A DNA stretch of 64,000 nt, taken from Chitinophaga pinensis DSM 2588. GTDB taxonomy: Bacteria > Bacteroidota > Bacteroidia > Chitinophagales > Chitinophagaceae. Positions 3,909 to 21,300 of this stretch are shown piece after piece. The notes beneath the pieces were generated by a model, which made no database searches, was not told the DNA's origin, and saw only the letters and a list, made by a program, of their open reading frames with translations. The position numbers were made by a program, and so were the translations under genes. Where the stretch lies: positions 5,946,001 through 6,010,000 of the forward strand of contig NC_013132.1 of the NCBI RefSeq assembly GCF_000024005.1. The letters run 5' to 3'. Numbering within the stretch: position 1 is the first letter of the stretch; each line of letters begins with the position of its first letter.

Positions 3909-4121
3909 TTAATTCCGGGTATCTTCATTTACGGCGACTTTTTTCACGACCAGCTTCCCTTTAGCAACAGTAATCTCAATGGGATCTCCCACATTAAAAC
4001 CTGCATCCTCTAACCATAAACCACGCACATTTAGCCACGGCACATTACGCCCTTTTTTCCAGTGATTACTTACTTCCTGATATTGGCCATGCAGCTTGCC
4101 ATGACGGATTGCCTTTGCCAT
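3909..4121 (-). CDS. SymE-like protein, module copy 1
   Basis: This 70-aa basic protein carries the SymE-family core PWLNVRGLWLEDAGFNVGDP followed by IEITVAKGKLVVKK, an AbrB-like swapped-hairpin fold. E. coli SymE is an SOS-induced endoribonuclease-like toxin controlled by the antisense RNA SymR. Here the partner is instead a divergent XRE regulator at 4278-4613. The N-terminal KLHGQYQEVSNHWKKGRxVPWL block is shared with the copies at 14312-14530 and 6506-6640. Whether this Bacteroidota version is toxic is not known from sequence. Confidence 0.8.
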   Translation of the reverse strand: MAKAIRHGKLHGQYQEVSNHWKKGRNVPWLNVRGLWLEDAGFNVGDPIEITVAKGKLVVKKVAVNEDTRN

Positions 4122-4277
4122 AGATGAAAGTTTATTGTTAGTTTTAATGTAACTATCAGTTATAAATATCGCTCATTATGTGGCATTTAGACAAATCTTA
4201 TCAGACTTATTTTCCCTTTTAGTTACTTAAATTCGCGAAACTGAAAACTAATCACACCATTCTATATCCTTTAAGAT

Positions 4278-4613
4278 ATGAACACAGGTAAAATCATTGC
4301 CGATCTCAGAGATAAATTAGCATGGTCGCAAACCGACCTAGCAGATAAAAGCAGCGTATCCAGGGTGATGATCGGGAAGTATGAACGCGGGGAAGCCGTA
4401 CCGTCCATTGATGCTGCTAAAAGGATTGCAGATGCGCTGGGGGTTAGTCTGGACTACCTGGTAGGTGAAGGGATAAATGCCCGGTTTGATAAAAAGACGC
4501 TGAAGCGGCTGGAAGAACTTGAGTTGCTGGAAGAGGATAAGAAACGGATACTCTATGATCTGATTGATACGTATATCAGAGATGCGAAAGCCAGAAAGGC
4601 ATATGCGCAATAA
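4278..4613 (+). CDS. XRE-family regulator, module copy 1
   Basis: This 111-aa protein has an N-terminal Cro/CI-type helix-turn-helix (LAWSQTDLADKSSVSRVMIGKYERG) at about residues 13-60. A DYLVGEG hinge follows, then a C-terminal helix ending in YIRDAKARKAYAQ. The C-terminal motif RDAKARxAY is shared with the two other XRE proteins in the window, although the body is clearly diverged. It is divergent from the SymE-like gene with a 156-bp shared promoter region, the geometry of a repressor controlling both directions. Likely an antitoxin-like or module repressor; inferred. Confidence 0.85.
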   Translation: MNTGKIIADLRDKLAWSQTDLADKSSVSRVMIGKYERGEAVPSIDAAKRIADALGVSLDYLVGEGINARFDKKTLKRLEELELLEEDKKRILYDLIDTYIRDAKARKAYAQ

Positions 4614-4786: not shown

Positions 4787-5197
4787 CTAATATTCCTGGG
4801 TTCTAAAAAAATCACCTCGCCATCTGAGCCAATACTCCCACTGCTCGTCGACAGTTGCTATCATACTCAGATCGTCGGTTGGATCAAAAATAAAACATAG
4901 GTCTTCTCTGGCTCCTGGCTTTCCCATTTCAAGTTTATATGCCTTAAAACTGGTTGCCATAAAACTTGAAGGATAAACATCTAACCTTGATCCTTTACAC
5001 AAAATCCTGATACCTTGGGGTTCCAGTATACGCCTTAACGATATCAGCGCAAAAAATGGATAGTCTTCCTCCAATTCAATATGAATATCCTGCGTATCGA
5101 ATTTCAACTGGATTTTTCCATGGCCGCTAGCGATCGATATAACAGCATCTAAATAAACCGAACCGTTATGACACATTAATGGATATTGTTTCATCAT
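4787..5197 (-). CDS. Hypothetical protein, candidate immunity for decayed Rhs tail
   Basis: A 136-aa protein with no recognised family, mixed alpha/beta in appearance, with a tryptophan-rich end (WEYWLRWRGDFF). Two ATG codons lie in tandem at the start (5197 and 5194). It follows the decayed toxin tail that ends at 5237 by about 40 bases, on the same strand, which is where an immunity gene lies in Rhs cassettes. The role is inferred from position. Confidence 0.5.
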   Translation of the reverse strand: MMKQYPLMCHNGSVYLDAVISIASGHGKIQLKFDTQDIHIELEEDYPFFALISLRRILEPQGIRILCKGSRLDVYPSSFMATSFKAYKLEMGKPGAREDLCFIFDPTDDLSMIATVDEQWEYWLRWRGDFFRTQEY

Positions 5198-5236
5198 CTT
5201 TTGTTTTTACTATCTCCGCCTGAAATGCTAATGCCA

Positions 5237-5727
5237 CTAATAGCATCTGACTATTCCACCTTTTACCGTTACAATTTCTTTAACGTCCATAGGTAGTTTA
5301 TAATCTTTGCTCCATGTAATATTGAACATATTAGATACCAGGTATTGAATATATTTCCCTTCGACTGAGGTCAATTTTATTTTATTCCCTTGGCAGGACT
5401 GTATATGTCTAATAAACTCCTGAGGAATTTTTAGCTGAGGGTATTTTCTCAGACAATAACAATAGTAGGCCCCACTCCAAACCGTCTATATCAATACCAT
5501 CAATAGGTCTATTACTTGCGAACTGATACGGTGTTAATTCCGGGTATTTCTGCGTCAGTGGGTCTATTGATAAGAACTTACCAACTCTCGGATCATACAC
5601 CCTCATACCATAATCCTGCTGATTCCACTCCTTTGATTTCGTTGTCGTCCTTCCCATTGAACCCATAACGATAAGCCCCACTACTAAACGCTCTCCTCAG
5701 ACATCAACTTCCAAATGAATCGAAAAA
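5237..5727 (-). pseudogene. Orphan Rhs core plus toxin tail, multiply frameshifted
   Basis: Minus-strand homology to the Rhs core starts near 5727 and shows, in order, [20 protein letters not shown], then [19 protein letters not shown], then IDPLTQKYPELTPYQFAS and DIDGLEWG. The first two blocks are in different frames. After DGLEWG the frame changes again into a tail reading RKYPQLKIPQEFIRHIQ and ending KGGIVRCY at a TAG at 5237-5239. At least three phase changes show it is dead. It is the oldest-looking displaced C-terminal cassette in the island. The tail's toxin type is not recognisable. Confidence 0.7.
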
Positions 5728-6505: not shown

Positions 6506-6640
6506 TTAAATTTTCGTGTAAGAACAACTCCCTCTGAGTTTCCAGAAGGGCACATCACGGCCCCTGTTCCAATGATTACTTAATTCCTGGTAACGACCAT
6601 GTAGTTTTCCCCGACGAAGTGTTTTACTTACAGTTTTCAT
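6506..6640 (-). pseudogene. Truncated SymE-like gene, module copy 2
   Basis: The ATG at 6640 opens a 44-codon frame: MKTVSKTLRRGKLHGRYQEL, then SNHWNRGRDVPFWKLRG, ending SCSYTKI. It matches the first ~32 residues of the intact copy at 14312-14530, then diverges. The conserved LNVRGLWLEEAGFNVGDP core and the whole C-terminus are gone. The divergent promoter region and XRE partner remain intact, so an active regulator is paired with a dead effector. Confidence 0.75.
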
Positions 6641-6669
6641 AAAAATATTTTTTCACAACAGATTTGTTG

Positions 6670-6743
6670 CAAACATAACATATCAATCTTAATCCAACAA
6701 GACTTTTATAGTTTGATTACGCTATTTATGTTTCATAAATTTG
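6670..6743. promoter_or_regulatory. Divergent promoters of XRE/SymE copy 2
   Basis: Rightward: TTTG at 6712-6715, a 20-nt spacer, then TAAATTTG at 6736-6743, an exact match to the Bacteroidota -33/-7 pattern, 37 bases before the XRE start. Leftward: CAAACATA at 6670-6677 reads TATGTTTG, with a TTG about 20 nt upstream, for symE. The XRE protein probably binds between the two. Confidence 0.65.
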
Positions 6744-6780
6744 CACAAACACTATTCTAACCGTTGTTTTTACTACAGAT

Positions 6781-7122
6781 ATGAAGCAGATTACTTTCGG
6801 CAAAAGGCTTACTGAGGTGAGGAAAGACAAAAAACTATCCCAGGACGAGATAGCTAAAAAGGTAGGCGTACATGGGGCCGTCATTGGCAGGTATGAACGC
6901 GATGAAGTAAAACCCTCTATTGAGATGGCCGCCAATATCGCTACCGCACTGGAAGTCTCTTTGGACTACCTCGTTGGTAATACTGACCTACTTCTGGATC
7001 AAACTATCCTTGACAGGATTATGGATATTCAAAAACTAAGTGACCAGGATAAAGCGGATGCCTTTAAACTACTGGATATGTTCCTTCGGGATGCTAAAGC
7101 TAGACACGCTTATCATAAATAA
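6781..7122 (+). CDS. XRE-family regulator, module copy 2
   Basis: 113 aa, nearly identical to the protein at 14672-15016; the only differences I see are one T/A substitution in the AANIATALEV stretch and one missing C-terminal residue. The helix-turn-helix lies at about residues 10-60 (LSQDEIAKKVGVHGAVIGRY) and the C-terminal helix ends in RDAKARHAYHK. The strong conservation beside a truncated symE suggests a recent duplication, gene conversion or selection for the regulator alone. An imperfect hairpin at about 7127-7146 follows. Confidence 0.85.
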   Translation: MKQITFGKRLTEVRKDKKLSQDEIAKKVGVHGAVIGRYERDEVKPSIEMAANIATALEVSLDYLVGNTDLLLDQTILDRIMDIQKLSDQDKADAFKLLDMFLRDAKARHAYHK

Positions 7123-7183: not shown

Positions 7184-7633
7184 CTATTGTAAAATATTGA
7201 TTGCTGTTTTCATTTTGCTACTGCTTCCTAAGCCTTTTTCATTCGATAAATTACCGCCTAGCCATTCGAGCGCATCATAAATCCAATTTAATTCCATTGA
7301 TACCTCTTTGTATGCATCTAAATAACTATTCAAAATTTTAATAGCTTCATCGCTGGAAGCAGTTAAAACAATTGCCAGTATATAACCCTTTATTTGCTTC
7401 CCATTTATTTCACTAAATAATAACACTTCTAACTGTTTTAAATATTCACTTTTCTTATTTAAAGCAATACAAAAAGAGACCAGTAGTTTTTCTCTCCATC
7501 CTCCGCTAAAATATTCACCGATAATACTCTGATCTATACCTTCACAATATAGCCTTGCAAGTTTTCTAAACTCCTCCGATTCATTTAAATTGAAATTTAT
7601 TAAATGCCTCAATAACGTTTGTTCCGTATACAT
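7184..7633 (-). CDS. Candidate immunity protein for the ADP-ribosyltransferase cassette
   Basis: 150 aa from the ATG at 7633 (MYTEQTLLRHL), which lies one base after the stop of the toxin tail at 7635-7637. The open frame upstream overlaps the toxin and is not needed. The protein is helical and leucine-rich, with repeat-like helical hairpins (LLVSFCIALNKKSEY and YILAIVLTASSDEAI). This resembles the alpha-solenoid-like immunity proteins often found after polymorphic toxins, though I cannot assign a family. The tight spacing strongly implies co-expression with the toxin tail. Confidence 0.65.
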   Translation of the reverse strand: MYTEQTLLRHLINFNLNESEEFRKLARLYCEGIDQSIIGEYFSGGWREKLLVSFCIALNKKSEYLKQLEVLLFSEINGKQIKGYILAIVLTASSDEAIKILNSYLDAYKEVSMELNWIYDALEWLGGNLSNEKGLGSSSKMKTAINILQ

Positions 7634-7634
7634 T

Positions 7635-8645
7635 CTATCTTTTAAAATTAGGGTTAGGAATAAAATCTCCGAGCGTTCCATCCGAATTAACCTTATAGGC
7701 CCCCCTGATATCTGTGTTTTTTATTTGATCAGGGACTGAAACTTCGTTTTCATAATGCCATTTATTTGACGTCCCATATTTTGCATTGATATCAATCCCA
7801 TTTTTTTGAAATCTAATTTCATATACAAAGTATCCATAATCTGCCGCAAGATCCTTCAATTTAGTAGTTGATATATAAGCACTATTCTTGGGATTGGATT
7901 GTAGATGCTCCCATAAATCATAATTCGTTCCTTTTGCTTTAAAACCATTCACAAACTTATTTGAAGGTTCACTCATAGAACCTCGATATAAATACGGCTC
8001 TTTAGGCACGGAACTTAGTTCTGCTTTCGCAAGCATACCAGCTCCTACTAAGTTTGCACTTGCTGCGGCAATATTTATATCCTTATTTAACCGCTGCTTC
8101 GCCGCTTCTATCTCATCAATTCTAAATTGCAACTCCTCACTTGAAAAATACTGAACCTGCTGCTTTCCATTATTGTCCGTATAGGTATATTTTCCATAAT
8201 TGGCTTTCTTTAGTTCAGGAGAAAACTCAAAGAACGCAAACGAACCATTATCTGGTTTGGGCACTTTTTGATATGTTATAGCACTATGAGCGGCTATCTG
8301 TTTATCTGTCTGAGGTGCTCCTAGAAGATGAATGCTTATATCTGTTTGTTGCTTCCAAACGTTGTCAGTGACTGTTAGTACTGTCTTACCGCCCGACATC
8401 GTATAAGAGTATGTTTTTACTCTCTTTTCAGCGCCATCCAGATCAATACTTCTAATAACGTCATTCTCTGCAAAAGCATAAGTACTATTCCATGGATACT
8501 CTACACTCAACGGATCCACACTCAAAAACTTACCTATCCTCGGATCATACACCCGCATTCCATAATCTTGCTGATTCCCCTCGCCCTTCACCTCATCATC
8601 ATTCTCCTTCCCATTAAACCCATAACGATATCCCCCACTACTCAA
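7635..8645 (-). CDS. Orphan Rhs C-terminal cassette with pertussis-like ADP-ribosyltransferase tail
   Basis: Residues 1-74 are Rhs core ([20 protein letters not shown] to [10 protein letters not shown]) and have no true start: the frame begins at a TTG that is a core codon. Core homology continues to about 8694 ([10 protein letters not shown]) across a one-base frameshift. A linker follows, then a tail at about residues 217-325. The tail has YLYRGS (R221), [24 protein letters not shown] (259-261), YFVYEIR and [12 protein letters not shown] (E299/E301). The order and the RG...STT...ExE residues match pertussis-toxin S1-like ADP-ribosyltransferases. It is silent unless recombined onto a full Rhs gene. 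Confidence 0.75.
8474..8645 (-). repeat. Rhs core segment repeated at 16188-16363
   Basis: The sequence here is highly similar, in the same orientation, to 16188-16363 in the main Rhs gene. It encodes the block from [13 protein letters not shown] to [16 protein letters not shown]. Such a shared core is the expected crossover site for swapping the variable toxin tail of the main gene with this orphan. Confidence 0.75.
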
Positions 8646-8768
8646 CCCTCTCCCCAGGCATCAACGTCCCAAACGGATTTTTACTCAAAGAACTGACCCT
8701 AAGATATCCTTTTTTCTTTCATCTGTATTTTCATTTGAAACAAAAAAAATAACACGCACGTATGCGGG

Positions 8769-8882
8769 ATGAGGGATGCGTTACTAAAGCTGATCTTTAT
8801 CCTGCTGATCATCAACGAACTAACGTACAGCATTTGTATCCCGATCACCGCATCCTTTATCCTGCAGACGGAAGCAAGATAG
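8769..8882 (+). CDS. Possible small hydrophobic peptide, 37 aa
   Basis: The frame MRDALLKLIFILLIINELTY SICIPITASFILQTEAR is short, hydrophobic and starts with a charged N-terminus, like a single-span membrane peptide. Two other frames are also open over the same bases. No clear ribosome-binding site or homologue is known to me. It lies at the edge of the GC-rich island. Confidence 0.25.
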   Translation: MRDALLKLIFILLIINELTYSICIPITASFILQTEAR

Positions 8883-8984
8883 TACTGCAGATGACCAGGG
8901 TACTGCTGCTCACGTTCGCTGCGCCTTGTTCTTCGCATCGATCAGGGAACTGACCTCTGGTAGCTATAATCTCACGCTTAATAG

Positions 8985-9345
8985 CGATCCCCCGCCACCA
9001 CCGCCATGCCGCCACGGTCGCTGTGGTGGGAGTGCGCAGCGGTAGCGGAGCACGGAGCCACAGCTGGCCGCGCTAGACCTTATCAGGGCCAGGAGCGCAG
9101 CGGATGGCAGAGACAAAAAGATAAGGCCGTGGCGGCTAAAGCAGGTGGCGGACGGACGAAGGCAGCAAAGGGATGACTGTAGCAGCGCCAACTGTGCGTT
9201 AGCCGCCAGACCGGGAGCTGCCCGAACGCAGGGCGATGGGGTGCAAAAACTGTGACAGGCTGCACACGGAACACCCTTACCGTAGGCAGCCTGCGCAGCC
9301 TGGCGCATGTTTTTGTGCACACGGAGACCGGAGTGAGACCGCTGC
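8985..9345. other. GC-rich structured non-coding island
   Basis: GC rises sharply above the flanks over about 350 bases. Inverted repeats include GCTGTGG (9020-9026) with CCACAGC (9058-9064) and CCTTATC (9078-9084) with GATAAGG (9120-9126). Open frames here are arginine-, proline- and cysteine-rich and overlap on the same strand in different phases, typical of spurious frames in GC-rich DNA. It may be a relic of an integrative conjugative element's transfer-origin region or a structured RNA; I cannot tell which. Confidence 0.5.
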
Positions 9346-9413
9346 TCCTGTTTCTATTGATAAGGAGCTTATAAACCCTGTTGGAAGGCTTTTGATAGGT
9401 TGATTGGCGGTTC

Positions 9414-9437
9414 TGGTCCCGATGGGACTTGAACCTA
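9414..9437 (-). other. tRNA 3'-end-like fragment
   Basis: On the minus strand the bases read TAGGTTCAAGTCCCATCG then GGACCA. This looks like a T-arm (GG-TTCAAGT-CC) and the 3' half of an acceptor stem with CA. No matching 5' half, D-arm or anticodon arm occurs upstream, so it is a fragment, as left by elements that integrate into tRNA 3' ends. Confidence 0.4.
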
Positions 9438-9542
9438 ACTTATAAACTCACGACTGGCAAGGATTAGATTTTCTAAAAAGCAACATACACACGATTTACA
9501 CTCCCTTTACGTATGTTTGTACATGCCTCTGATAACCGATTG

Positions 9543-9575
9543 TTTGGACGCGGGTTCGATTCCGCAGACTCCACA
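9543..9575 (+). other. tmRNA (ssrA) 3'-end-like fragment
   Basis: The sequence GGACGCGGGTTCGATTCC followed by GCAGACTCCACA closely resembles the T-arm and acceptor end of bacterial tmRNA. One C is missing from the 3' T-stem, so it cannot fold perfectly. No tmRNA body lies upstream. The ssrA 3' end is a classic integration site, so this is probably an attachment-site remnant. Confidence 0.45.
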
Positions 9576-9587
9576 ATGATCTCCCAT

Positions 9588-9616
9588 TGACCTACTGCTT
9601 AGAAGGCAGTGGCTCA
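9588..9616. other. Short hairpin next to the tmRNA-like fragment
   Basis: ACTGC (9594-9598), a 7-nt loop TTAGAAG and GCAGT (9606-9610), extended by TGA/TCA at the ends. The shape resembles an anticodon arm, but nothing else of a tRNA surrounds it. It could be a recombinase accessory site or a terminator. Confidence 0.35.
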
Positions 9617-9761
9617 TTAATAGATTAGCAGCGTGCCTTCGTATGGATTCTTATATAAATGGATATCAATAACTTACAAACAAAGTGTGTCTTTTTTGTG
9701 TCGTAGACCCAGGTAACATTTTACCCATCAGCCACTACCTCCTATACCCCACCCATACAGG

Positions 9762-9804
9762 ACGTATACACCCTTCATACATGCCGTATATACGACGTAT
9801 ACGT
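9762..9804. other. Clustered palindromes, candidate recombination site
   Basis: Two perfect 10-bp palindromes abut: CGTATATACG (9785-9794) and ACGTATACGT (9795-9804). A further ACGTATAC occurs at 9762-9769. The cluster lies 21 bases beyond the stop of the distal recombinase gene. Many tyrosine recombinase genes sit next to their attachment site, so this is a candidate att core or arm-binding cluster. Confidence 0.4.
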
Positions 9805-9825
9805 GGACTTGAACAGCTAAACGCT

Positions 9826-10689
9826 TCACTTTATCGGGTGGTACAGCTCTATGGCTGACTGTAAACGGTACACATCATCCTGGCGGTATCTTTCTGTACT
9901 CGAGGGGTATTTATGACCTGCGAACTGCTGCACAACACCTATATCATGACCCTGGCTAAACAGGTTGGCTATCACACTCTGACGGATACGCTGCGCACTG
10001 ACTTCCCGACCCCGGTAAAGACCCCTATAAATCCGTTTTACATGTTTACTGATCTCTGTTCCGGGCATTCCTTTACCACGATGACCAACCAGTAATAAAT
10101 CGCTCTCTGAGCCCCTTAAAAGCTGCGGATGCACTTCCGACAGGTAACTAGTCAGCCAGTCTATTTGTAACGGTTTTAAGGGTAACTCACGCCTGTTGGT
10201 GACCGCCGTACCCTTTATATACACACTGCCTTTCTCCAATAATATATCTGATACTGATAATGCCGATAACTCGCCCACCGTCAACCCCTGGTACACCAAT
10301 AAGCTTATTAACACCTTATTGCGAAGAGCAAGTACACTATAACGTTCCTCCCGCTCCAGTAAAACTTCCAGTTCTGCACCACTGAACAGGTCCTGTAACT
10401 GGATGTCCCTGCTACGCTTATCCCGTAGACGGATATTACGCGCTGGATGATCCAGACGCGCACCTATCTGACACAGATAATCATAATACACTTTGATACT
10501 GCTTACGATTCGGTGTAAGGTGTAGCTATTACGGTAACGGTGACGTAATACACCTATATAGCTCATTAGATCGGAGTAAACGGCCCCTGCTGCTTCAGGG
10601 TAAGCCGATAAAAAATGGTTGATCTCACGCAGATAAGAGGCCGCCGTACTGGCGGTATAATGTTGTTGTAAATATTTGTCTAAGGTCAT
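9826..10689 (-). CDS. Tyrosine recombinase 2, catalytically degenerate
   Basis: A 287-aa integrase-fold protein with an N-terminal SAM-like domain (about 1-90) and a C-terminal catalytic domain (about 100-287). Lys159, Arg236, His259 (FAGHKYPSS) and Tyr268 (TERYRQ) are in place. However, the first catalytic arginine is Thr137 (YQGLTVGEL) and the box-II histidine is Gln233 (AQRIRQ). Its start overlaps the stop of recombinase 1 by 4 nt, so the two are co-translated. Loss of Arg I should abolish independent strand cleavage. It may work as a structural partner of recombinase 1, as in multi-recombinase elements; this is inference. Confidence 0.85.
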   Translation of the reverse strand: MTLDKYLQQHYTASTAASYLREINHFLSAYPEAAGAVYSDLMSYIGVLRHRYRNSYTLHRIVSSIKVYYDYLCQIGARLDHPARNIRLRDKRSRDIQLQDLFSGAELEVLLEREERYSVLALRNKVLISLLVYQGLTVGELSALSVSDILLEKGSVYIKGTAVTNRRELPLKPLQIDWLTSYLSEVHPQLLRGSESDLLLVGHRGKGMPGTEISKHVKRIYRGLYRGREVSAQRIRQSVIANLFSQGHDIGVVQQFAGHKYPSSTERYRQDDVYRLQSAIELYHPIK

Positions 10690-11540
10690 ATTACTGCCAG
10701 TTGATGGGCGCCAACTTTCGCATAGATCTGCGTCGCTTCCAGGTGACGGTGGCCTAAAAAGTCACGTACATATTCAAGCGACATACCGCCCTGTAACAGG
10801 TGCGTTGCGATACTATGACGTAAATAATGAAGACTGATCCCTTGCCATAATCCTGCACGACCAACCAACCCTTTCAGTAAGCGGTTGTAACTACTACCAC
10901 TCATGCGCCTGCCTTCCCGGTTTAACATAAACGCACCTTTCTCTACTGCTCCGGATTTACGATATTCTTCCAGGTAAACACCTAACTCCCCCGCCACTTT
11001 GCCCGTTAACGGGATCACCCTGCGGCTCGCACCTTTTCCAGAGCGAACATATAATAACCGGTGACGCACCTGCACATCTCTGACGTTTAACATCTCCGCC
11101 TCACTACGACGCAACCCACAACTGTAAAACAAGTGTAACATCACTTTCTCACGCATACTGATTGCTGCCGTAAACAACGCTTCCACTACCTCAACACTGA
11201 GCGCTTCACGCCTGCCGCTGGCATGTCTACGGAACTTTAACCCACTCATCGGATTATACTGCAACCCGTCACTACTCTCCTGCCAGCTAAAAAACACTTT
11301 TAACGCATACACATAATGACTGATCATGATTCCGCTCAATGCCCCTGACCGGTATTTTAAAGGACGGATATGTAACCACTCATAAAATAACACTATGATA
11401 CCAGGGCTTATTTCTACGATGCTTTTAAAACCACCATATTCCAAAAATTCTCGCACACATGCGGGCAGCATCCGCTGTGTACTAAGCCCATAGCCACTTT
11501 GCTGTAAATAATTTTGGAACTGTATAATATAAACCTCCAT
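10686..11540 (-). CDS. Tyrosine recombinase 1, XerD-like, catalytically complete
   Basis: 284 aa. An N-terminal SAM-like core-binding domain (about 1-100) precedes the catalytic domain. All expected residues are visible: Arg144 (SCGLRRSE), Lys169 (RSGKG), His238 and Arg241 (HYLRHSIATHL), His264 (LGHRHLEAT) and Tyr273 (QIYAKV). It is therefore probably active in site-specific integration or excision. It lies between the primase and the degenerate recombinase 2 in one operon. The length is usual for XerC/XerD-like transposon recombinases. Confidence 0.9.
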   Translation of the reverse strand: MEVYIIQFQNYLQQSGYGLSTQRMLPACVREFLEYGGFKSIVEISPGIIVLFYEWLHIRPLKYRSGALSGIMISHYVYALKVFFSWQESSDGLQYNPMSGLKFRRHASGRREALSVEVVEALFTAAISMREKVMLHLFYSCGLRRSEAEMLNVRDVQVRHRLLYVRSGKGASRRVIPLTGKVAGELGVYLEEYRKSGAVEKGAFMLNREGRRMSGSSYNRLLKGLVGRAGLWQGISLHYLRHSIATHLLQGGMSLEYVRDFLGHRHLEATQIYAKVGAHQLAVI

Positions 11541-11597
11541 GCTACCACTATGACGTTTTTGGTGTTTTTACCCCCCTTGAGCATTTTTCCGGAACAC

Positions 11598-11685
11598 GGA
11601 ACGCCAGGCACTTTTTCCAGTGTTTACGCCACTTCTAGCGTTCCACTGGCGTTCCGTAGCGTTCCAGATCACCTGCTGGCGTTCC
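11598..11685. repeat. Helically phased GCGTTCC iteron-like array
   Basis: GCGTTCC occurs four times on the plus strand, starting at 11638, 11649, 11659 and 11679, with spacings of 11, 10 and 20 bases, close to whole turns of DNA. An inverted copy GGAACGC sits at 11598-11604. The array overlaps the last codons of the primase gene and the gap before recombinase 1. Phased short repeats beside a primase are typical of replication initiation or recombinase-binding sites. Confidence 0.55.
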
Positions 11686-14334
11686 AACTTTAATCGCTGA
11701 TAACTGATTAGATAGGTGTGTCCGGATACGCTCACGAAGACCCTGATAGTTATCCCAGTAAACGATCTTGTACGTAAAGCCCTTATTGTGGTGACCTCCA
11801 CAGGTACAGATATATTCAAGCCGTACCAGATCCTGGGCGTAACGGAACAACTGGGTCTTGCTCAGATGTAAGCCCTGACGGATCTCTCGTAACGTAAACT
11901 CCGACTGACTATAATGAGTCCCATATTTACCACGTAAGTACTCCTTTAACTGCTCATAAAACTGTCGCAGACTACCGTCCAGTTCATCTACCTTTAATAC
12001 AATGCTGTCGAACATGATACCGATCGCTGATTCCACATCACTCAACTCAGCGACCAACCGACCTTTACTATCCCGCCTCCTTTGGTACTGATGTAACAAG
12101 GTCACCATCTTCACAAAGTTTAAAAACAGGTCATGTAAACGACGGATCTTATGCGCATCTTCTGGTAACTGTAAACGACCTGCATAGGGATTCACCACCT
12201 CTAACGGTTCTAAGCTGCGTACCAGGTTACGGATAAATTCTTTACGTTCCTGTTCTCTACCTGTATCTATCTCCCCTGCTGCTTTACTGTTCTGATAACC
12301 AATAATACGCCGCGTCTGCTCCCCGCTCTCGTCTACCGCTATCAGGAACACTCGGCTCATATTATCCTCATACAGCTCCCCTCTCGTCGTACAAGCAAGA
12401 CTCGCTATCGGACCTCTTACCGTCTTCTGGCCACTCGTGATCTGACCATTATCCAGCTTAATGCTGGTCGCACTGTTTAACTCTCCATTACTCTGCAACT
12501 CACGGAACGCGAACTCTGCCTCCTCACTCAACCCGTCTATATCTTCCAGGCATAACAACCGGTTCATAAAGTAACGTTCAGGATAATTGTATAATACCTT
12601 ATCACTTACCCGCGTCAGACGCGTCACTTTCTCAGGCGGTATACAGTCTGATACCTGCTTTAATAAACGCGTCTTTCCACTTCCACTACTCCCCTGTATC
12701 AGTGCATGTAAAGGCGCAGGCATCTTATAACTCAGTGCTACCAACAATAAAAACAAACGGTTCTGTTCCTCTCCGACTATACCCGTTTCTCCTAATAATA
12801 CATTCAATGCCTGTAATAAGTCTTCCTGACGCAAAAAACGAACGGCTGTATTACGGGCTGATTCACTCAAAGTATACACCGCAACGCTTTCAGCAGCTGT
12901 TGATTCTCCTTTTCCCTGTTCTGCCTCCCGGTACCCGTCCAGCAGGTCTGTCAACCGGTAGAGGTCCTGTTCCACCACATCTTTGCGCAAGCCCAGTTTC
13001 TCACCTGCCTCCCTGCATAAGCGTTCTACCTGTTTGTCCTCATACAGGTCTACTTTATTACGGCTCTTTTGACTACTCTCTTTATGCTCGATCACCAGCG
13101 TGACCTTCATACTGTCCAGCTGCTTACTGAGTCCTCCCTGTATATAGTAATTACCCCCTGTACCCACATACAGTAACTTATAGGGATTACGGCTGTCTAA
13201 TACGGTGCCATCTGATACAACCGCCGTGCTTTCCGGTGATGATGGGGTTATTTTTTCAGCTGATACTTCAGTTGAAAAAAATAAACTAGTCCTACTTTGC
13301 AATAACTCCGTAAACACCTCTGCCGTATGGCTCACGCCCATACTATTAATGTCCTCTCCATCTGGCAGTACAATGCTGCTCAGCTGGACATAAGGCAGAC
13401 GTTCCTTTAAGGAACTGCTGTATTTCTCTACCGCCTTACGACCTGCTTCATCCCCATCAAAAGCAAAAATGATCTCCTGCAGCTGACCTAAACCCACTAT
13501 TGCCGCCTCATGCTCTGAGGTCAACCCATTCGTACCATAACAGGCAAGGATACCATACCCCTTACCTATCTCATGATGCTGTAACAAAGTCGCTGCATCT
13601 ATCACCGATTCGGTCAGGATCAACCGGGTGATAGCTGATTTCGGATAACCTGGATACAAGCCCTTTCGGTCTTTCAGGTAATAATGACGCTGGTCACTAT
13701 CATTGACCGTACTGCGGAAGTACATCCCACTGATTTCACCGCCGCTATCCCGTAACGCAAACGCGATACAATATTTCCCAAAAGGTTTATAAGCCTGGGT
13801 TCCTTCGCGGGTATTAGAACCCCAGGCAGACAGTAAACCTACCGATACACATGCCGATATCAACGCTTCATCCCTGCGGGCGCCATGATGGAACTGCGCC
13901 GTATTATAGCCAACTTCTAAACGGGTAATGTCTAAGCCGCGGCTTTGCAGATACGCTTGCGCAGGTTTGCTGTTATGGATCGCATTCTTAAAATAGGTAA
14001 ACATATAGTTCAGGATGCCTGAACGGCTAACCGGTACAGCAGCGACCGCACTCGTACTTCCGCCTATCAGCTCCTTACATTTCAGGATCGCTTCCCGTTT
14101 ACTGATACCATCCTTATGCATCACAAAGTCGATCACATCCAGCGACTTGCCATGCGTCTTACAGTTACTGCTAAAACAATAACAGGTTTGCGTCTTGTAA
14201 TACACCTGCAGGCTCGGGGTCTTGTCATCATGGAACGGGCAGTGTAATCGCAGGTGCTTATCAGGTTTTAACCCGTAATGCATCAGCACCTGCGATAACG
14301 TTAGCTGCTGCTTAATGGCTGCTATTTCCATCAT
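11635..14334 (-). CDS. Primase-ATPase: CHC2 zinc finger, Toprim and P-loop domain
   Basis: 899 aa. A CHC2 zinc-binding domain lies at about 28-65 (C32, H35, C53, C58), as in DnaG. A Toprim domain spans about 237-325, with Glu242 (LTESVID) and the DxD of FAFDGDEAGRKA (D293, D295). A linker leads to a P-loop ATPase with Walker A GSSGSGKT (548-555) and Walker B-like LCLEDID (594-600). The C-terminal part looks like a winged-helix region. This combination implies primer synthesis coupled to a DNA-motor or initiator activity for element replication. Its start overlaps the symE stop, so translation is coupled. Confidence 0.85.
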   Translation of the reverse strand: MMEIAAIKQQLTLSQVLMHYGLKPDKHLRLHCPFHDDKTPSLQVYYKTQTCYCFSSNCKTHGKSLDVIDFVMHKDGISKREAILKCKELIGGSTSAVAAVPVSRSGILNYMFTYFKNAIHNSKPAQAYLQSRGLDITRLEVGYNTAQFHHGARRDEALISACVSVGLLSAWGSNTREGTQAYKPFGKYCIAFALRDSGGEISGMYFRSTVNDSDQRHYYLKDRKGLYPGYPKSAITRLILTESVIDAATLLQHHEIGKGYGILACYGTNGLTSEHEAAIVGLGQLQEIIFAFDGDEAGRKAVEKYSSSLKERLPYVQLSSIVLPDGEDINSMGVSHTAEVFTELLQSRTSLFFSTEVSAEKITPSSPESTAVVSDGTVLDSRNPYKLLYVGTGGNYYIQGGLSKQLDSMKVTLVIEHKESSQKSRNKVDLYEDKQVERLCREAGEKLGLRKDVVEQDLYRLTDLLDGYREAEQGKGESTAAESVAVYTLSESARNTAVRFLRQEDLLQALNVLLGETGIVGEEQNRLFLLLVALSYKMPAPLHALIQGSSGSGKTRLLKQVSDCIPPEKVTRLTRVSDKVLYNYPERYFMNRLLCLEDIDGLSEEAEFAFRELQSNGELNSATSIKLDNGQITSGQKTVRGPIASLACTTRGELYEDNMSRVFLIAVDESGEQTRRIIGYQNSKAAGEIDTGREQERKEFIRNLVRSLEPLEVVNPYAGRLQLPEDAHKIRRLHDLFLNFVKMVTLLHQYQRRRDSKGRLVAELSDVESAIGIMFDSIVLKVDELDGSLRQFYEQLKEYLRGKYGTHYSQSEFTLREIRQGLHLSKTQLFRYAQDLVRLEYICTCGGHHNKGFTYKIVYWDNYQGLRERIRTHLSNQLSAIKVGTPAGDLERYGTPVER

Positions 14335-14530
14335 GCGCCTTTTTAATGATCAGCTTTTCCTTACTCACAATGATCTCTATCGGATCCCCTACATTAAAGC
14401 CCGCTTCTTCCAGCCATAGACCCCGTACATTCAGCCAGGGCACCTTACGGTATTTCTGCCAGTAATTACTTACTTCCTGATACTGACCATGCAGTTTACC
14501 ACGACGAAGTGTTTTGCTTACAGTTTTCAT
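14312..14530 (-). CDS. SymE-like protein, module copy 3 (intact)
   Basis: 72 aa from the ATG at 14530 (MKTVSKTLRRGKLHG). It holds the SymE core PWLNVRGLWLEEAGFNVGDP and the strand IEIIVSKEKLIIKK. The frame stays open upstream to 14572, but that stretch contains the promoter of this gene. It overlaps the primase by 23 nt and so belongs to the element operon. In E. coli SymE is an SOS toxin; here it could be an addiction component, or an AbrB-like DNA-binding protein controlling the element. Confidence 0.8.
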   Translation of the reverse strand: MKTVSKTLRRGKLHGQYQEVSNYWQKYRKVPWLNVRGLWLEEAGFNVGDPIEIIVSKEKLIIKKAHDGNSSH

Positions 14531-15013
14531 AAAAAATATTTTTTCACAACAGATTTGTTGCAAACATAACATATCAATCTTAATTCAACAAGACTTTTAT
14601 AGTTTGATTACGCTATTTATGTTTCATAAATTCGCACAAACACTATTCTAACCGTTGTTTTTACTACAGATATGAAGCAGATTACTTTCGGCAAAAGGCT
14701 TACTGAGGTGAGGAAAGACAAAAAACTATCTCAGGACGAGATAGCTAAAAAGGTAGGCGTACATGGGGCTGTCATTGGCAGGTATGAACGGGATGAAGTA
14801 AAACCCTCTATTGAGATGGCCGCCAATATCGCTGCCGCGCTGGAAGTCTCATTAGACTATCTCGTTGGTAACACTGATCTACTTCTGGACCAGACTATCC
14901 TCGACAGGATTATGGATATTCAAAAACTAAGTGACCAGGATAAAGCAGATGCCTTTAAACTACTGGATATGTTCCTTCGTGACGCAAAGGCCAGACATGC
15001 TTATCATAAACAA
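14460..15013. repeat. Direct repeat of about 560 bp shared with 6560-7122
   Basis: The symE 5' part, the whole divergent promoter region and the XRE gene match 6560-7122 in the same orientation, with very few differences in the intergenic part and XRE gene and more within symE. Recombination between the two copies would delete about 7.9 kb, including the ADP-ribosyltransferase orphan and both recombinases. Confidence 0.8.
14561..14634. promoter_or_regulatory. Divergent promoters of XRE/SymE copy 3
   Basis: Leftward: CAAACATA (14561-14568) reads TATGTTTG, an exact -7 box for symE and the element operon, with TTG about 20 nt upstream. Rightward: TTTG at 14603-14606, a 20-nt spacer and TAAATTCG at 14627-14634, one base off consensus; copy 2 has TAAATTTG. 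A small palindrome CAACA-GATT-TGTTG lies in the symE leader and is a candidate operator. Confidence 0.6.
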
Positions 15014-15016
15014 TAA
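14672..15016 (+). CDS. XRE-family regulator, module copy 3
   Basis: 114 aa. The helix-turn-helix is at about residues 10-60 (LSQDEIAKKVGVHGAVIGRY), followed by SLDYLVGNT and a C-terminal helical segment ending RDAKARHAYHKQ. It is divergent from symE and the primase/recombinase operon with a 141-bp shared control region, like a phage or ICE repressor. It probably represses the symE operon and its own gene; the operator is not proven. The lack of a metallopeptidase domain means induction would need another signal. Confidence 0.88.
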   Translation: MKQITFGKRLTEVRKDKKLSQDEIAKKVGVHGAVIGRYERDEVKPSIEMAANIAAALEVSLDYLVGNTDLLLDQTILDRIMDIQKLSDQDKADAFKLLDMFLRDAKARHAYHKQ

Positions 15017-15052
15017 GAAGATGCTATCTCAGCAACTCTAAGACAACCTCTT

Positions 15053-15094
15053 CTAAGAATAAAGCCTGGTTCAATGACCAGGCTTTATTCTTAG
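15053..15094. terminator. Bidirectional terminator, 18-bp stem
   Basis: CTAAGAATAAAGCCTGGT (15053-15070) pairs perfectly with ACCAGGCTTTATTCTTAG (15077-15094) around a 6-nt loop. It lies between the convergent XRE gene and the Rhs immunity gene and marks the likely junction between the mobile element and the Rhs operon. Confidence 0.8.
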
Positions 15095-15096
15095 CT

Positions 15097-15372
15097 CTAT
15101 ATTAAAAGGTTTATATTTTTCTTTGCATAAAATTCAATTCCCTCTTTATTTCGTTTAATAACCTTCGATAACTTAGTACCACAAAAAGGACAATAATTTA
15201 TTGCTTGTTGACCTACAGCTAACCTCCCTTCTCGCTCATCAGCATCTTGGCTTCTTGTTTGCAAAAAAATGGTATAGGTACTATCTTCATATAACTTAGG
15301 GATTGCAGAAAAACCTTTACTTCCTGCACAATAAAACCAAGTACTTAACGGAGAACAACAAAACTCAATCAT
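15097..15372 (-). CDS. Candidate immunity protein of the main Rhs toxin
   Basis: 91 aa from the ATG at 15372 (MIEFCCSPLSTW). An upstream TTG at 15396 would overlap the Rhs gene. The gene begins 13 bases after the Rhs stop (15386-15388), the expected place for a cognate immunity gene. A CPFCGTKL knuckle near residue 62 suggests a zinc-ribbon-like element. The family is not recognised; the role is inferred from position. Confidence 0.65.
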   Translation of the reverse strand: MIEFCCSPLSTWFYCAGSKGFSAIPKLYEDSTYTIFLQTRSQDADEREGRLAVGQQAINYCPFCGTKLSKVIKRNKEGIEFYAKKNINLLI

Positions 15373-15385
15373 ATACTTATCATTA

Positions 15386-18300
15386 TCATTTAACAATATA
15401 TTTATTCAGATCCTCAGCAACTCGAGGATCAAACCTTATCTCCTCATTCCTTATACCTTTTACATGATCATAATCTTGCCATGGTGCAGCCAGACCACGT
15501 CTTTCCCAATCCTTATAGACAGACTTTGGTATTTTAAACTTGTATAAAGTTCCTTCCCTAATTGCATCCACAGCAACGGGATCTGTTCCCGTAGATAAGG
15601 GACGACTGGTTGAAACTTTTCCATCTGTTAAAGTTCCTTTATGATAAACTGTCTGATATTCTTCAAAATCAAAATTAGCCCATTTATCAGCAACTGAACC
15701 AGCAGTTGCTTCCTCACCAGCTACTCCAGCATCATTTATAGCAGTAGTTGCTGATACCTCTCCTGCTGCAATAAGACCACCCATGCCTATCATTATACCT
15801 GCTGCAACATTCTGAGGGGTCCAGGTTGATTTGTATGCTCCCCACAATCCCCCTCCATTAGCTTCAGCTCTTTCAACCCATCCTGCAGCCCAATCTAATT
15901 TATCTCTCGTTTTCGCAAATAAACCTACTGCATCAGTTCCAACAATATAGTCATCTACATAACCGCCCCTTACCTGTTTCCTCGCTAGCCACCATTGCTT
16001 ACCATCCTGACTCGTAACTCCGTGTAAACGATAATTTCCAATTTTTATAAAATGCTTTTCATCAATTACTCCACTTAATGGTAGCGTAGCTTTGCTTAAA
16101 TAAGTAATTCCTGTAGGTTGTTTAGCCGCTGGATCAAACTTCTCGAGCCCATCAAGATCTATAAACTTAACCGGATTATCCTCTGCATAAGCATAACTAC
16201 TATTCCATGGATACTTAGGACCTAATGGATCCACACTCAAGAACTTCCCTACCCTCGGATCATACACCCGCATCCCATAATCCTGCTGATTCCCCTCGCC
16301 CTTGACCTCATTATCATTCTCCTTCCCATTGAACCCATAACGATAACCCCCACTGCTAAACGACCTCCCAGGCATCAACATCCCAAACGGATAATACTCC
16401 TGTGCAGACACCACATCCGCTACTGCATTCCCCGACTGCCACCATCTCTTATCACTTACCGTCGCCAGTACATTCCCAAGATGGTTTGTTAATTCAAAGA
16501 TCTTTCCTCCTCTCGTGAAATTAGTATAAAATCCTGAACCTAATCCAATAATCGTCTCTGCATTTACCACCGCACTATCCTGAATATTGACATTCAACAA
16601 ATTAAGCCCTAAACGGCTCGATCCATAAAGATCAGATTCGACCTTCGTCAGCTTTCCGCCATTAATCCCGGCATCTCCCTGGGTATAAACAGCCATCACA
16701 TTTCCTGTCGCATCACGCACATACCACGTATACACGCCGTTTGCGAATTTGCTTACCCTGTTGCCGCTGGCGTCATAAGCATATCTGATGACAGTACCAT
16801 CTTCTTTAGTGATACTGCTAATCTTCCCGTAAACAGTCCATTGAATATCAGCAATTTTCGCCGTGCTATCTCTTACAAGATTACCTATGCTGTCATATCG
16901 GTAGTTACATGGAAGCTGACGATCGATATCAACATCGTAATAAGTAGAATCTACGCTGTCATGAATATAGTCAAGCCTATTGGTACCTGTCTTATAATGA
17001 TAAGTCAGATTATCCATCTCCAGGTGCTTCTTCGAAAATGTGGTATCCCCTTTACGATTGTAGGTCAGGATATTACCATTTGCATCATAAGTTACCTGTT
17101 CCCTAAAATCGGGCAACTGAACTGCATTCCAGATATTATTAGCAGAATCAAGTCCCTTATAAGCAACCATCCCGTGCAACCTGTTCAGCACATCATAACT
17201 ATACTTGTATTGCAGAGAAGTACCCAGCGACGGAATTGACTGACTGATAGCTGCTATATTCCCGTTATACAACGGACTAAACCCGCTACCGGTTGCCGAT
17301 GCAAACGGACGACTAAGGCCAATAGGCTTATAGTCATTATCACCATAATAATATAAAGCAAAGCCATAGACATCTTTCGCGGCGGAATGTCCATCAGCTC
17401 CCATGTCAAAATTACTACCCGCCGAAGTGCTGTTCACTCCCTTTAGCCAACCCTGTAATGTATAGGCATAATCCGTACCCTGCACCTGCTGCTGCCCCAG
17501 GATCGTACGCGCCAGTGGCCCATGCTTATAATACTGGTAAAACGCATCATTCTCCCAGTACACACTATCCGTACTCGTTTCGACACTTATTAACCTGTTC
17601 TCAGCGTCATAGCCATAACGGTGATACACTGCATCTGAATACCCCGGCTGATAAGCAACATGGTTTACCTTACCGCTGATCAGATCATATTTGTAAACAA
17701 TCTTTTTCCAGCGGCTCTGCAGACTCTGCAGCACACCTTTCTTGTAATCCTGCATGAGGGTATCTACATTACCATGAATATCATAGCTGTAGAAAGTACC
17801 TACCGCATAATCACCTGTTAACTGTTCCGGCGATGAATCATACAATGCCGTCCAGGCAACACGATTCCTCAGATTTTTAGCTGGAAACAGATCAGGAGCA
17901 AAGATCCCAACACGGGTATCGTAATAGGTATGTGTGATCTGTGTACGGCTGTTATTAGCATTGGTAAACCAACCTTGTAAACTATCAGCGCTTCTGCTGA
18001 GCGTATTTCTCATGGCAGCGCTGCTGCCGATTTCACCGACTTCTGTTGTTCTTCCCAACGGATCATACTGCGTATAACTATATCTGGATAACGGTCGTTG
18101 CTTCGCATTCTGGGAAACTGACAATCTTCCTAGTCTGTCATACCAGAAATTGCTGACACCCGCATCAGGAGTATATTGCGCAATTACCTGGTTCAGGGTA
18201 TTATAGCGGTAACTGGTTACCAGTGTATGAGCGGGCGTGAGTACTTGTTTAGCCGCTCTTGCCATCCTTACGCGATAAAGCCAGGAAGCAGAACGGTCTA

Positions 18301-21300
18301 CCACAACTCCGGCAGGAGGGACTGTTTTAACCAGATTCCCCGCCTGATCGTAGTAGTAAAGCGTATAATGATACTCACTGAGCTTATAGGCTACTGTATA
18401 AATCTCTCGCTGACCGGCCAGCATACAGCTATCCGCATATGCATTACCAAAGCTGTTCTTAACAGAATCAACATAAGCATTATACAAATCAGTTCCCTTG
18501 CTGACAGCAAAGTATTCGTTATCAGAACAGTTATCGATATTATCAGTAACCGGTCTGAAGATAGGGTTGATATTACCACATAAAAGCGGTCCGCCACGGA
18601 TCTTGTAACAGCTGTCAATACCACCACAGAAGATAGGAGCCTGATATATACCAGAGCTAAGCGCAGTAATCGTAATTGGCAACACCACAGAATCCGCTCC
18701 ACGTATAATATTGATCGGCAAAGGACTGTTCCTGTTAGGTGTTACCCGCAGGAAAATCAGACTATTCGCGATCTCCGTATTATTACAATTCACTCTTCCC
18801 GAAGGAGGTGTCATCATCAATAAACCATCCCTTCCATAACTACCCACACCAACAAATCCGCCACTGGCACTCTGAACAATACTATTCAAAGAAGCTGCGC
18901 TATCCAGCATGATCATGTCTGACCAGGCTATCGTACTGTCACGGGTGATCCTGTTCAGCACCAGACTGGTACGTGGCGATGTCAATACATTCTGGGCAAT
19001 GACAAGTCCCAGGTCGCTGGTAATCGCCATTGGCATTTTTTCTGCGACAAGCGTGTCCTTCCTGACAGCAAACTGCTTCGAAGCCAGAACAGTACCATTA
19101 TTCGATATCCAGGCGATAGAGTTCACCGCTCTCCTTCCAAAACCATTCGTGGCACTGAACACATATCCCTCTGGTGTTTTCTCAATAACGCCCGGATAAC
19201 TGTCATTCGTGATGGGGGCACTTCCGAAGTCATATCTGAACACCCTGTTAGTTACACCAGTGTATTTATTGAGTTTAGCAATGATCAGATCATAGTCATG
19301 GTACACTCCCGTATGTTCCATCAGGAGATTTCCCATTACCACCAGCGTATCATGGTCTTCCAGCATCGAATAGGTCGCATCAATATTCGAACTACCCATC
19401 TGTCTGATCCATCCACCCATACCCACTGTATCCAGGGTCCCTACGATCCAGTCACCAGTGCTGTCAATATTGTTGATATTAGACCTGCCGGAATAAGCAA
19501 AGTTCCCATCACTTAATTCCAGAATGTCTACTCCCGTCTCTCCATTCGGTGTATTAAACCCGATTTTACGGCTCCATTTCACATTACCAATCGCATTCGT
19601 CTTTGTAATCAGAATTTCAGAACTATCATGTCCTATTCCCCATACAGCACCGATCGCAATAATACCTCCATCACGGGTAGGTTTCACACGGGCAAAATAA
19701 TTCCTTGTTCCTACCGGATAAAGCTTCGACCATTCAACCGCCCCGTGTGCGTCTACTTTTGTAATAAAAGCAGTTGAATCCAGATCAATGGTCGGACCTA
19801 CAGATGATGCTCTTTCATTACCTGATGTGGATGCAAAAGTGATAATACCTGATTGCTTTCCTTTTAACATACCTCCTAAAAGGAATCCGTTATCTGGTGT
19901 ACGGGAAAGGTCAGAAATAATCACACTTCTGCCACGGGAGTCTATATAAGTATTATAGATGCGGTCTGTTACCTGACAGACATTTTCATCTGCTGTGAAC
20001 CCGGCCTGACAGCTATCCAGGAAATTAAGATATTCCCAATACTCTTTTGCAAATCCAAGTTTGTTATTCATATAAGCCGCAAACAGCTGATTCTTCAGCT
20101 CCTGCTGCCTGTTATTTGTCGTATCCTCTTCCAGCTTAGGTACGATGCCAGGGAATTTCGCCTGATAGGCAGTATAGGCAGCTCTTACTTCTGTACAGGA
20201 TGCACAAGGCGGCGCGGTATTACATTGAATAATAACCGGTATAGAAACAGGCTGTGAAAGATAAGTACAGGAGCTACCAGCTGCATTACATGCATTCAGC
20301 AAAGTCTGTAACTGATGCTGGATGAAGGAAGTTCCCCTGGTTCTGTTCAGATAAACCGCAAAACTGGTATCGCTGACATTCTTATTTCGGTTATATTCTG
20401 TCTGTAGTATGCGTAACTGATTACACTCGCAATCATTCGGTCCTGTATAGGAAGGCTTATCACTATAAGCCGGCTGTTTATCATATGGCGCCGGCGCAGT
20501 AATCAGGTATCCGTTACACACCAACGGACTGTCAATACCATGCACACTGTTATATTCTTCCAGTACCTCCTGGAAACTTCTGTACCTGTAACCACTTGAA
20601 GGTTTTACAGAACTTGCACCTAAAGGATGATCAATATCCGAACCTTCTTTACAAACCATGATCAGTTTCTGAGACAGTTCAGCCCAGGCGCTTGCGTCAT
20701 ATTTACAAGGCGCCAGCTGTTTCAGCCAGGCAGATACATAAGCCCTGCAATTCGCATCATAACTGGCAGCAAGTGCTGCATTGATTGAATCTGTCAGCTC
20801 CTTTTCGGTCCTATCAGTACCCAGATAAGCTAACTTGTTCTGTTTCAGAGCCGCTGCCGCTGTATTAAAACGAGGCGACTTCCCCCCATCCAGCAAATCC
20901 TGACTGCTTACAGTGCGTATGCCAGCCGGGGCGCCTATATTCGCGACTTCGTCATCCAGTATATTACGACGGTAGCTCAGGTACAACTGCCTGAAAGTAC
21001 GCCATGCCATATCCAGATCTCCTGTACATAAAACCGTTTCATCAAACGCCTTCGCAGGAGTACGATACAGATCTGTACAAGCAGGTATTACCTTGTCACA
21101 TTTCACCATGATTGTCGCGGCACTCCACATGGAAAGCAGCTTAGCCGGATCACCTTCATTGTTGTATGATGACAATGCCTGGTATAGCTTACCGGCCACC
21201 AACACATCTCTGTCTGCAAGCGGATCTTTATTCGCATTTACAATAGTGAATGGAAATGCATTATTGGCAATTGGGTTCAGATATCCCTGTGTCTTTGCTG

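Follow-up and report, generated by a model that had tools for sequence, protein, structure and literature searches.

The C-terminal toxin ends of Rhs and CdiA proteins are exchanged together with their matching immunity genes, and this exchange has so far been attributed to homologous recombination; in the portions of the literature available, integrases are no more than suspected. Tip recombination was proposed, or a nearby integrase, XerC/D, or SymE gene noticed, in the accessible text of several reports (PMC4927057, PMC3482391, PMC11278526, PMC5727410, PMC10539506, PMC5361080). For instance, new modules were proposed to integrate into cdiA and displace the old one, with intervening integrase and transposase genes noted (PMC4927057), and Rhs-associated integrases were suspected in bee gut bacteria (PMC5727410). 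A parallel to integrons was drawn for the type VI secretion system (T6SS) modules of Vibrio cholerae, for which evidence of an integrase working in the integron manner was stated to be lacking so far (PMC5361080), and mobile immunity arrays were mentioned (PMC10539506). The locus studied here lies in a 64,000-bp stretch of the one-contig, 9,127,347-bp genome of Chitinophaga pinensis DSM 2588 (positions 5,946,001 to 6,010,000; the whole stretch is called the window below). As in the CdiA/Rhs orphan modules, displaced C-terminal tips and immunity genes are found downstream of an active Rhs gene; what differs from the accessible orphan-module literature is that a conserved element, its site, and circle-like records can be defined. 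The element encodes an XRE protein, a SymE-like protein, a primase-helicase, and two tyrosine recombinases (TYR1 and TYR2). Very likely, this is a self-replicating integrative element that uses the conserved Rhs core as its attachment site and carries a toxin tip and the matching immunity gene as cargo. Comparison of sequences revealed a conserved unit, an exact switch point, variable tips on near-identical elements, an element-free orthologous locus, circular records, and displaced tails. No description of this element, its attachment site, or its switch point was found in the accessible part of the open PMC literature.

Four other described systems share some of these features. First, integrons also use a tyrosine recombinase to add cassettes at a fixed, expressed position while older ones are pushed down, but their integrase is fixed outside the mobile cassettes, whereas the recombinases and the primase here lie within the repeated unit, which thus bears its own recombination and replication genes and targets a coding sequence. 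Second, phage satellites (phage-inducible chromosomal islands [PICI], P4-like, and RstR-controlled satellites) have a compact layout of repressor, primase-helicase, and integrase. The same layout is present here, and the XRE protein passes the RstR cutoff; unlike the satellites, this element has two recombinases and an in-frame toxin-tip cargo, and no packaging genes were seen among its five genes. Third, shufflons (Rci/PilV) alter the C-terminal end of a surface protein by site-specific tyrosine recombination that inverts resident segments, whereas the tips here would arrive and leave via a mobile element. Finally, recombinase-associated acquired interbacterial defense (rAID) clusters of Bacteroidales are mobile arrays of immunity genes, whereas here an element that brings its own primase would exchange the active toxin tip of a gene.

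Self comparison of the window revealed two downstream Rhs tails preceded by DNA that resembles the active gene's Rhs core, as well as pieces of XRE and SymE that recur further down. The complete unit spans 8625 to 16339 (7,715 bp), running from the core of the active Rhs gene through the toxin tip, the immunity gene, and the element genes to the same core motif before the displaced tip, and two older, gene-poor copies lie beyond it (6569 to 7122 and 3909 to 4613). The whole 9.13-Mb genome has 15 Rhs-core matches, 3 of them at this locus. A preliminary description, made from the window alone, had recognized the five genes correctly but had set the ends at 9755 and 15016, both too far inside. 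When units are repeated, their order is Rhs core fragment, toxin tip, likely immunity gene, XRE (divergent), SymE, primase-helicase, TYR1, TYR2, about 1 kb of noncoding DNA, and the next core fragment. This layout recurs in Bacteroidota, often as tandem units, and the recurrence of the gene order, for which the preliminary description had proposed to search, marks it as more than a chance arrangement. One scan of species genomes gave 34 loci, among which C. pinensis YS-16 is the closest named relative; comparison of the window with YS-16 and C. filiformis revealed tandem units of 7,888 and 7,841 bp, respectively. The primase was found in 32 of 79 genomes of the window's genus and in 12 of 394 sampled Bacteroidota genomes, the window's included.

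The units lie next to Rhs cores. Three samples (named, phylum, and genus) were compared, with units counted only at ≥200 bits and, for the genus, flanks taken from 22 of the 32 positive genomes, the window itself being among the other ten. Where there was enough flank, a same-strand Rhs core was located within 3 kb upstream of the primase in 17/22, 12/16, and 25/25 units, respectively, and a core within 3.2 kb downstream of the recombinases in 13/17, 6/11, and 26/26. The named-set units without a core match were L065 to L068; of these, L066 lies at a VgrG/Rhs cluster that was missed by our core model and is recognized by curated models, and L065 is a circle-like contig with an Rhs tail.

Long repeats were present in 15 of the 21 loci examined for boundaries, and the switch point was read base by base where tandem units bear the same tip. 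The tandem copies were 99 to 100% identical from TATGG(G/A)TT.. or TACAAGTACAA.. onward, compared to 25 to 48% identity in the 60 bp before it, the exception being one G147 pair (two displaced copies compared) in which the preceding 60 bp were 83% identical. Seven boundaries in six arrays (L037, L038, L074, G147 twice, L059, and L126) fell within 6 nt of each other. This switch lies within 6 nt of TATGGGTTTAATGGGAAGGA or the corresponding TACAAGTACAACGG in C. pinensis YS-16, C. filiformis, the Aureibacter plasmid pAT2, G147 (twice) and G152 of the window's genus, and Chryseobacterium balustinum. The Rhs codons at this shared point are YGFNGKE. In L121 and L123, the left edge was placed between the immunity gene and XRE because their tips differ, and in L124 it is the end of the stretch. 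A fixed attachment site with sharp boundaries was thus found, as in integrative tyrosine-recombinase elements.

Units that switch at other codons carry other recombinases. These codons are YYPFGL (L115, L125, and the right edge in L121), LWDGNVLLHQW (L066), and NHLGNVL (L075); a Pseudomonas aeruginosa plasmid unit switches within a TpsA2/CdiA-type gene, and L119 within another secreted protein. On a TYR1 tree of 50 rows, site type required 4 changes, the minimum, compared to a mean of 15.6 when labels were shuffled, and none of 200 shuffles was as low, with near-copies inflating this clustering. The initial 78 rows were reduced to these 50 by leaving out identical rows, rows to which no core could be assigned, and repeat copies of a record. 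YGFNGKE was the default label where neither YYPFG nor NHLGN preceded the core, which leaves L047, L064, L116, and L118 weakly labeled; L065, L066, L067, and L119 were set for hand labeling, and L065 and L119 are in the tree. Descent of the hosts does not by itself account for the clustering, as the window's genus contains both main site types.

The same boundaries bear on how the tandem units arose. Unequal crossing over, rather than repeated integration, could have generated them, and the identical units in several arrays (L038, L074, L115) fit this explanation. However, different elements are stacked in L041, L060, L122, and G147, and the boundaries lie at the att motif instead of being spread through the core, which makes this an unlikely origin of the arrays; it may still act as an amplifier of units.

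The cargo is variable. As in Rhs polymorphic toxins, the Rhs core is followed by a variable tip, and the 65 units with a readable tip and a primase contained 48 tip families without detectable relation. Among unit pairs with primase identity of at least 80%, 50 of 64 had unrelated tips, defined as no BLASTP hit at an E value of 1e-3 over the last 130 residues, and the other 14 were tandem copies or one record entered twice (L108, L109, and L117 are second copies of the L037, L041, and L053 records). Within L121, and likewise within L123, units with identical primases carry different tips; the window primase is 95% identical to that of the YS-16 element, and their tips are unrelated by BLASTP. 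A Pfam domain above the cutoff was found in 4 of the 10 tips scanned (Scabin-like, glutamine deamidase, GIY-YIG, and JAB-like toxin 1). The genes downstream of the tips are, by inference, immunity genes.

Two records have the contents that would be expected of a circular form of the element. The first, Lonsdalea populi NZ_CP072857, is a closed plasmid record of 11,289 bp. Its two tails match the Rhs core model over no more than the final ∼28 residues and then continue into colicin-DNase-like and nonspecific endonuclease domains. It also carries SymE/helix-turn-helix (HTH) pairs, one full primase and a truncated one, XerC, and a toxin-antitoxin pair, and no Rhs N terminus. The second is metagenomic contig L065, whose ends overlap exactly over 327 bp and which is 11,036 bp once the overlap is removed; in addition to XRE, the primase, and both recombinases, it contains an Rhs tail whose tip is of the nuclease type, again without an Rhs N terminus. 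It was the only 1 of 18 loci with an end overlap of 12 to 399 bp, a set in which L053 was not a whole contig.

The reciprocal observation, an orthologous locus without the element, was made in the related genome G213, as the preliminary description had suggested looking for. No primase match was found in G213, whose orthologous Rhs locus is 88% identical to the window up to the core and 87% on the far side. Between them, 13.4 kb of the window is replaced by 9.3 kb, and the homology stops at 16224, just inside the tip. Presence and absence between related genomes, as seen with integrative elements, is therefore found both at this locus and across the genus (32 of 79 genomes). With this locus, and with the genes occurring together in other genomes, neither of the outcomes named in the preliminary description as refuting it was obtained.

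Displaced tails have a signature of their own. A right-end motif lies ahead of the Rhs core at displaced tails, usually within ∼20 bp and up to 68 bp, and it is also present at several tails in primase-less genomes of the genus that carry strings of displaced Rhs tails (L104, L105, L106), so that those tails look like footprints. The right-end model gave weak matches (E value of about 5e-4) within the primase genes of L038, L039, and L048 too.

These findings also address the possibility that tips are exchanged only through RecA-dependent homologous recombination between conserved cores, with the primase-recombinase element as a passenger downstream of the immunity genes. Homologous recombination is the published model for Rhs, CdiA, and T6SS effectors (PMC4927057, PMC5361080, and PMC5727410, as far as their text was available). 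The cores are indeed homologous, and the tail strings of L104, L105, and L106 occur without the element. However, the switch points fall at one position although the compared cores differ along their length, and they vary with the recombinase. Moreover, the right-end motif stands before the core in the primase-less arrays as well, and the circle-like records unite core fragment, tip, and element, all of which makes homologous recombination improbable as the sole route. Least probable is that this is an ordinary plasmid- or satellite-like island for which the Rhs gene is a safe site and the carried tip merely restores the gene end, its novelty being functionless: many integrases do target genes and restore their 3′ end, and a Leptospira plasmid that lacks annotated toxins has a member of the primase family too, but the restored end here is not conserved and usually differs between elements, and several recombinase clades, as well as the CdiA-type relatives, sit at the boundary between backbone and variable tip.

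An integrative element with the Rhs core as its attachment site would work as follows. A circle carrying, in order, a core fragment, a new tip, its immunity gene, XRE / SymE-primase/helicase-TYR1-TYR2, and the noncoding right end that leads back to the core fragment would be crossed into the resident Rhs core by TYR1, probably with the degenerate TYR2 as its partner. The Rhs backbone would then read on into the new tip, and the old tip would be left behind the element with a short piece of core. Repeated integration would build stacks of displaced tips and tandem elements, with the newest beside the backbone. XRE would silence the element in the fashion of a prophage repressor, and the primase-helicase would copy the circle from the iterons. 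The junctions of the circle and of the restored gene are expected to switch at TATGGGTT(C/T)AATGGG. We infer excision, integration, replication, repression, the role of TYR2, and the identity of the latest-arrived tip from the arrangement of the sequences.

Several points weigh against this reading. First, its support, also for excision and integration, is entirely comparative. Second, the circle-like records are imperfect, since the curated cutoff of the Rhs core model is not reached by the Lonsdalea tails, and a tandem array could also produce the end overlap of L065. Third, G213 is not a clean empty site; it has displaced remnants of its own and a tmRNA-like fragment, and short window-G213 matches occur within the exchanged stretch, including Rhs cores and positions 4807 to 5213 at 84%. 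Fourth, the genus sample is biased to intact copies, with nine positive genomes left out, seven of which have only partial primase matches. Fifth, no Rhs core was found in the stretch examined in 2 of the 11 other phylum-sample genomes (G374, G414); a core is absent within the set distance on one side in L113 and L123 and on both sides in L114; and a decayed fragment in G203 (<200 bits, not counted) has no core nearby. Finally, a primase-recombinase relative on a Leptospira weilii plasmid (L142) adjoins ParA/ParB-like genes, with no polymorphic toxin annotated, which shows that the primase family as a whole is not tied to toxin delivery; this plasmid is a possible ancestor of the family.

In G374 and G414, the element lies at other large genes, one of which has an AHH nuclease domain at its end; apparent displaced tails and downstream genes are arranged in the same order there. 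Related elements in L112 and L119 lie at large genes other than Rhs, one of them with a terminal AHH nuclease domain, which suggests still other targets. More distant relatives, at ∼25 to 28% identity, occur on proteobacterial plasmids, where an HTH gene and a CHC2 primase are accompanied by only one XerC and, in many cases, by a toxin-antitoxin pair. Those of Paraburkholderia, P. aeruginosa, and Enterobacter lie behind a hemagglutinin/CdiA-type gene and a small gene, possibly the immunity gene of the former; the Salmonella record has no hemagglutinin/CdiA-type gene annotated in the stretch examined, and the Caballeronia stretch carries no annotation at all.

It is rather likely that the window element is one branch of a cross-phylum class of elements dedicated to exchanging polymorphic-toxin tips, in which each recombinase clade has its own conserved codon stretch immediately ahead of the tip (Rhs genes contain four of these stretches, a CdiA-type gene one, and another secreted protein one). 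If so, the bacterial repertoire of toxins and immunity genes would be reshuffled through site-specific integration, and SymE/XRE pairs and integrases among orphan tips would be footprints of past integrations. The element would also account for orphan tip arrays, along with the XRE and SymE genes among them, as what successive integrations left behind. With the element, its crossover site, and the circle junction defined, tip exchange becomes testable at the bench, and a recombinase family that targets conserved coding motifs would be a new subject for the study of target-site specificity. The features of the window are collected in Table 1.

Table 1. Features of the toxin-tip element and its surroundings (window coordinates)
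Feature	Position	Strand	Basis or remark
attL in active Rhs gene, codons YRYGFNGKE	16320..16345	-	Motif position; breakpoints at same motif in tandem arrays; crossover expected at TATGGGTTCAATGGG from 16339
Toxin tip fused to active Rhs gene (Rhs gene 15386-23980)	15386..16339	-	Without Pfam match
Probable immunity gene of active tip	15097..15396	-	Position only; DUF6980 match below cutoff
Perfect 18-bp inverted repeat, probable terminator after XRE	15053..15094	.	Sequence
Putative XRE repressor, RstR family, divergent	14672..15016	+	NCBIfam RstR, above cutoff
SymE-like protein	14312..14572	-	Pfam SymE_toxin, above cutoff
CHC2 zinc ribbon-Toprim primase fused to ATPase	11635..14334	-	ATPase MCM-helicase-like in low-confidence model
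GGAACGC iterons (direct copies and one inverted copy), candidate replication origin	~11590..11687	.	Repeat enrichment
TYR1, catalytic tyrosine recombinase	10686..11540	-	Catalytic residues complete
TYR2, conserved catalytically degenerate tyrosine recombinase	9826..10689	-	Residue comparison, predicted fold
tRNA and tmRNA 3′-end fragments	9417..9620	.	Sequence match
370-nt conserved noncoding segment; candidate RNA or replication/recombination site	8990..9360	-	Alignment
Element right end: motif ahead of core at displaced tails	8631..8780	-	Right-end model
attR, same codons as attL, at displaced-tail start	8605..8630	-	Core comparison
Displaced Rhs toxin tail 1, Scabin-like domain	7635..8624	-	Pfam
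Immunity candidate of tail 1 (DUF6000)	7184..7681	-	Domain match
Older-copy remnant: XRE 6781-7122 and partial SymE	6569..7122	.	6569-7119 is 94% identical to 14459-15010
Core of displaced Rhs tail 2	5475..5715	-	Self comparison, core match
Third-copy remnant: SymE 3909-4121(-) and XRE 4278-4613(+)	3909..4613	.	Domain matches

The element genes are tightly packed, with a 23-bp overlap between SymE and the primase and a 4-bp overlap between TYR1 and TYR2. The distinction drawn in the preliminary description between a complete and a degenerate recombinase is borne out by their homologues. The TYR1 residues R144, K169, H238, R241, H264, and Y273 are invariant in 19 of 19. In TYR2, the first catalytic Arg is gone in 17 of 19 homologues and the His of HxxR in 18 of 19 (at least one in all 19, both in 16), whereas 18 of 19 retain R236, and the same number holds for H259 and for Y268. 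Its predicted fold (mean predicted local distance difference test [pLDDT] score of 88.7) resembles XerA and XerH. TYR2 has the appearance of a degenerate partner that is conserved, not of a gene in decay. The predicted primase model is of low confidence (mean pLDDT, 69.6), and the resemblance of its helicase half to MCM is for this reason a lead only.

The two regulators differ in how regularly they occur. SymE was present in 13/32, 2/16, and 19/30 units of the named, phylum, and genus samples, compared to 31/32, 15/16, and 30/30 for the divergent XRE and 25/26, 14/14, and 29/30 for TYR1 where there was enough flank. The presence of SymE in only part of the units, against XRE in nearly all, makes XRE more likely a prophage-like repressor and lends no support to SymE as an essential addiction module. 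The SymE-like protein is above the cutoff of Pfam SymE_toxin but far below that of the NCBIfam SymE equivalog. No relaxase or conjugation genes were recognized among the five genes, in keeping with the preliminary view of a compact integrating element without transfer functions, and its suggestion that toxin cassettes may be mobilized has gained much stronger support from the switch point, the variable tips, and the circle-like records. The possibility that the element is a phage found no backing: a scan of viral contigs with the primase profile gave 105 pattern matches, none of which was confirmed, and none of 34 matches to phage records covered 80% of the primase.

The noncoding parts of the element were also compared. 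The palindromes (CGTATA) that the preliminary description had noted at one end do exist at 9755 to 9802, but they were rejected as an attachment site or element end because an 86% copy is found at genome position 6370676 and a shorter one at 751465, and because they were not seen at the equivalent place in L038, L039, and L069; a diverged form is present in L050. They appear to be a dispersed repeat. Just after TYR2, fragments match tRNA-Arg(TCT) at 97% over 32 bp and the genome's tmRNA at 86%, and such tRNA/tmRNA 3′-end pieces were found at 9417 to 9620 in the window, 10497 to 10990 in L037, 7121 to 7335 in L039, 2310 to 2520 in L069, and 7676 to 7738 in L100. As the fragments vary between elements at the same Rhs site, they are not supported as the present attachment site, and they are possibly scars of tRNA targeting or tRNA decoys. 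The 370-nt segment between TYR2 and the right end (8990 to 9360) is GC rich, has a long hairpin, and is conserved in many elements of the genus, with 69% mean column identity over 19 aligned copies. Its predicted fold has 7 of 44 pairs with a kept change on both sides and z scores of −2.6 and −2.8 on the two strands. There was no Rfam match in the window at gathering scores, and a search of plasmid records with positions 8690 to 9400 gave zero matches.

Finally, the phased repeats reported earlier inside the element correspond to iterons at the primase end. Their word is GGAACGC in the window, and other self-consistent words are found in several other elements; a word was present at least four times at the iteron place in 30 of 67 elements, compared to 34 of 3,300 control windows. 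Together with the primase-helicase, the iterons indicate that the element probably replicates itself, as had been proposed. Their variation suggests a resemblance to plasmid incompatibility groups, in which initiator and iterons would change together.

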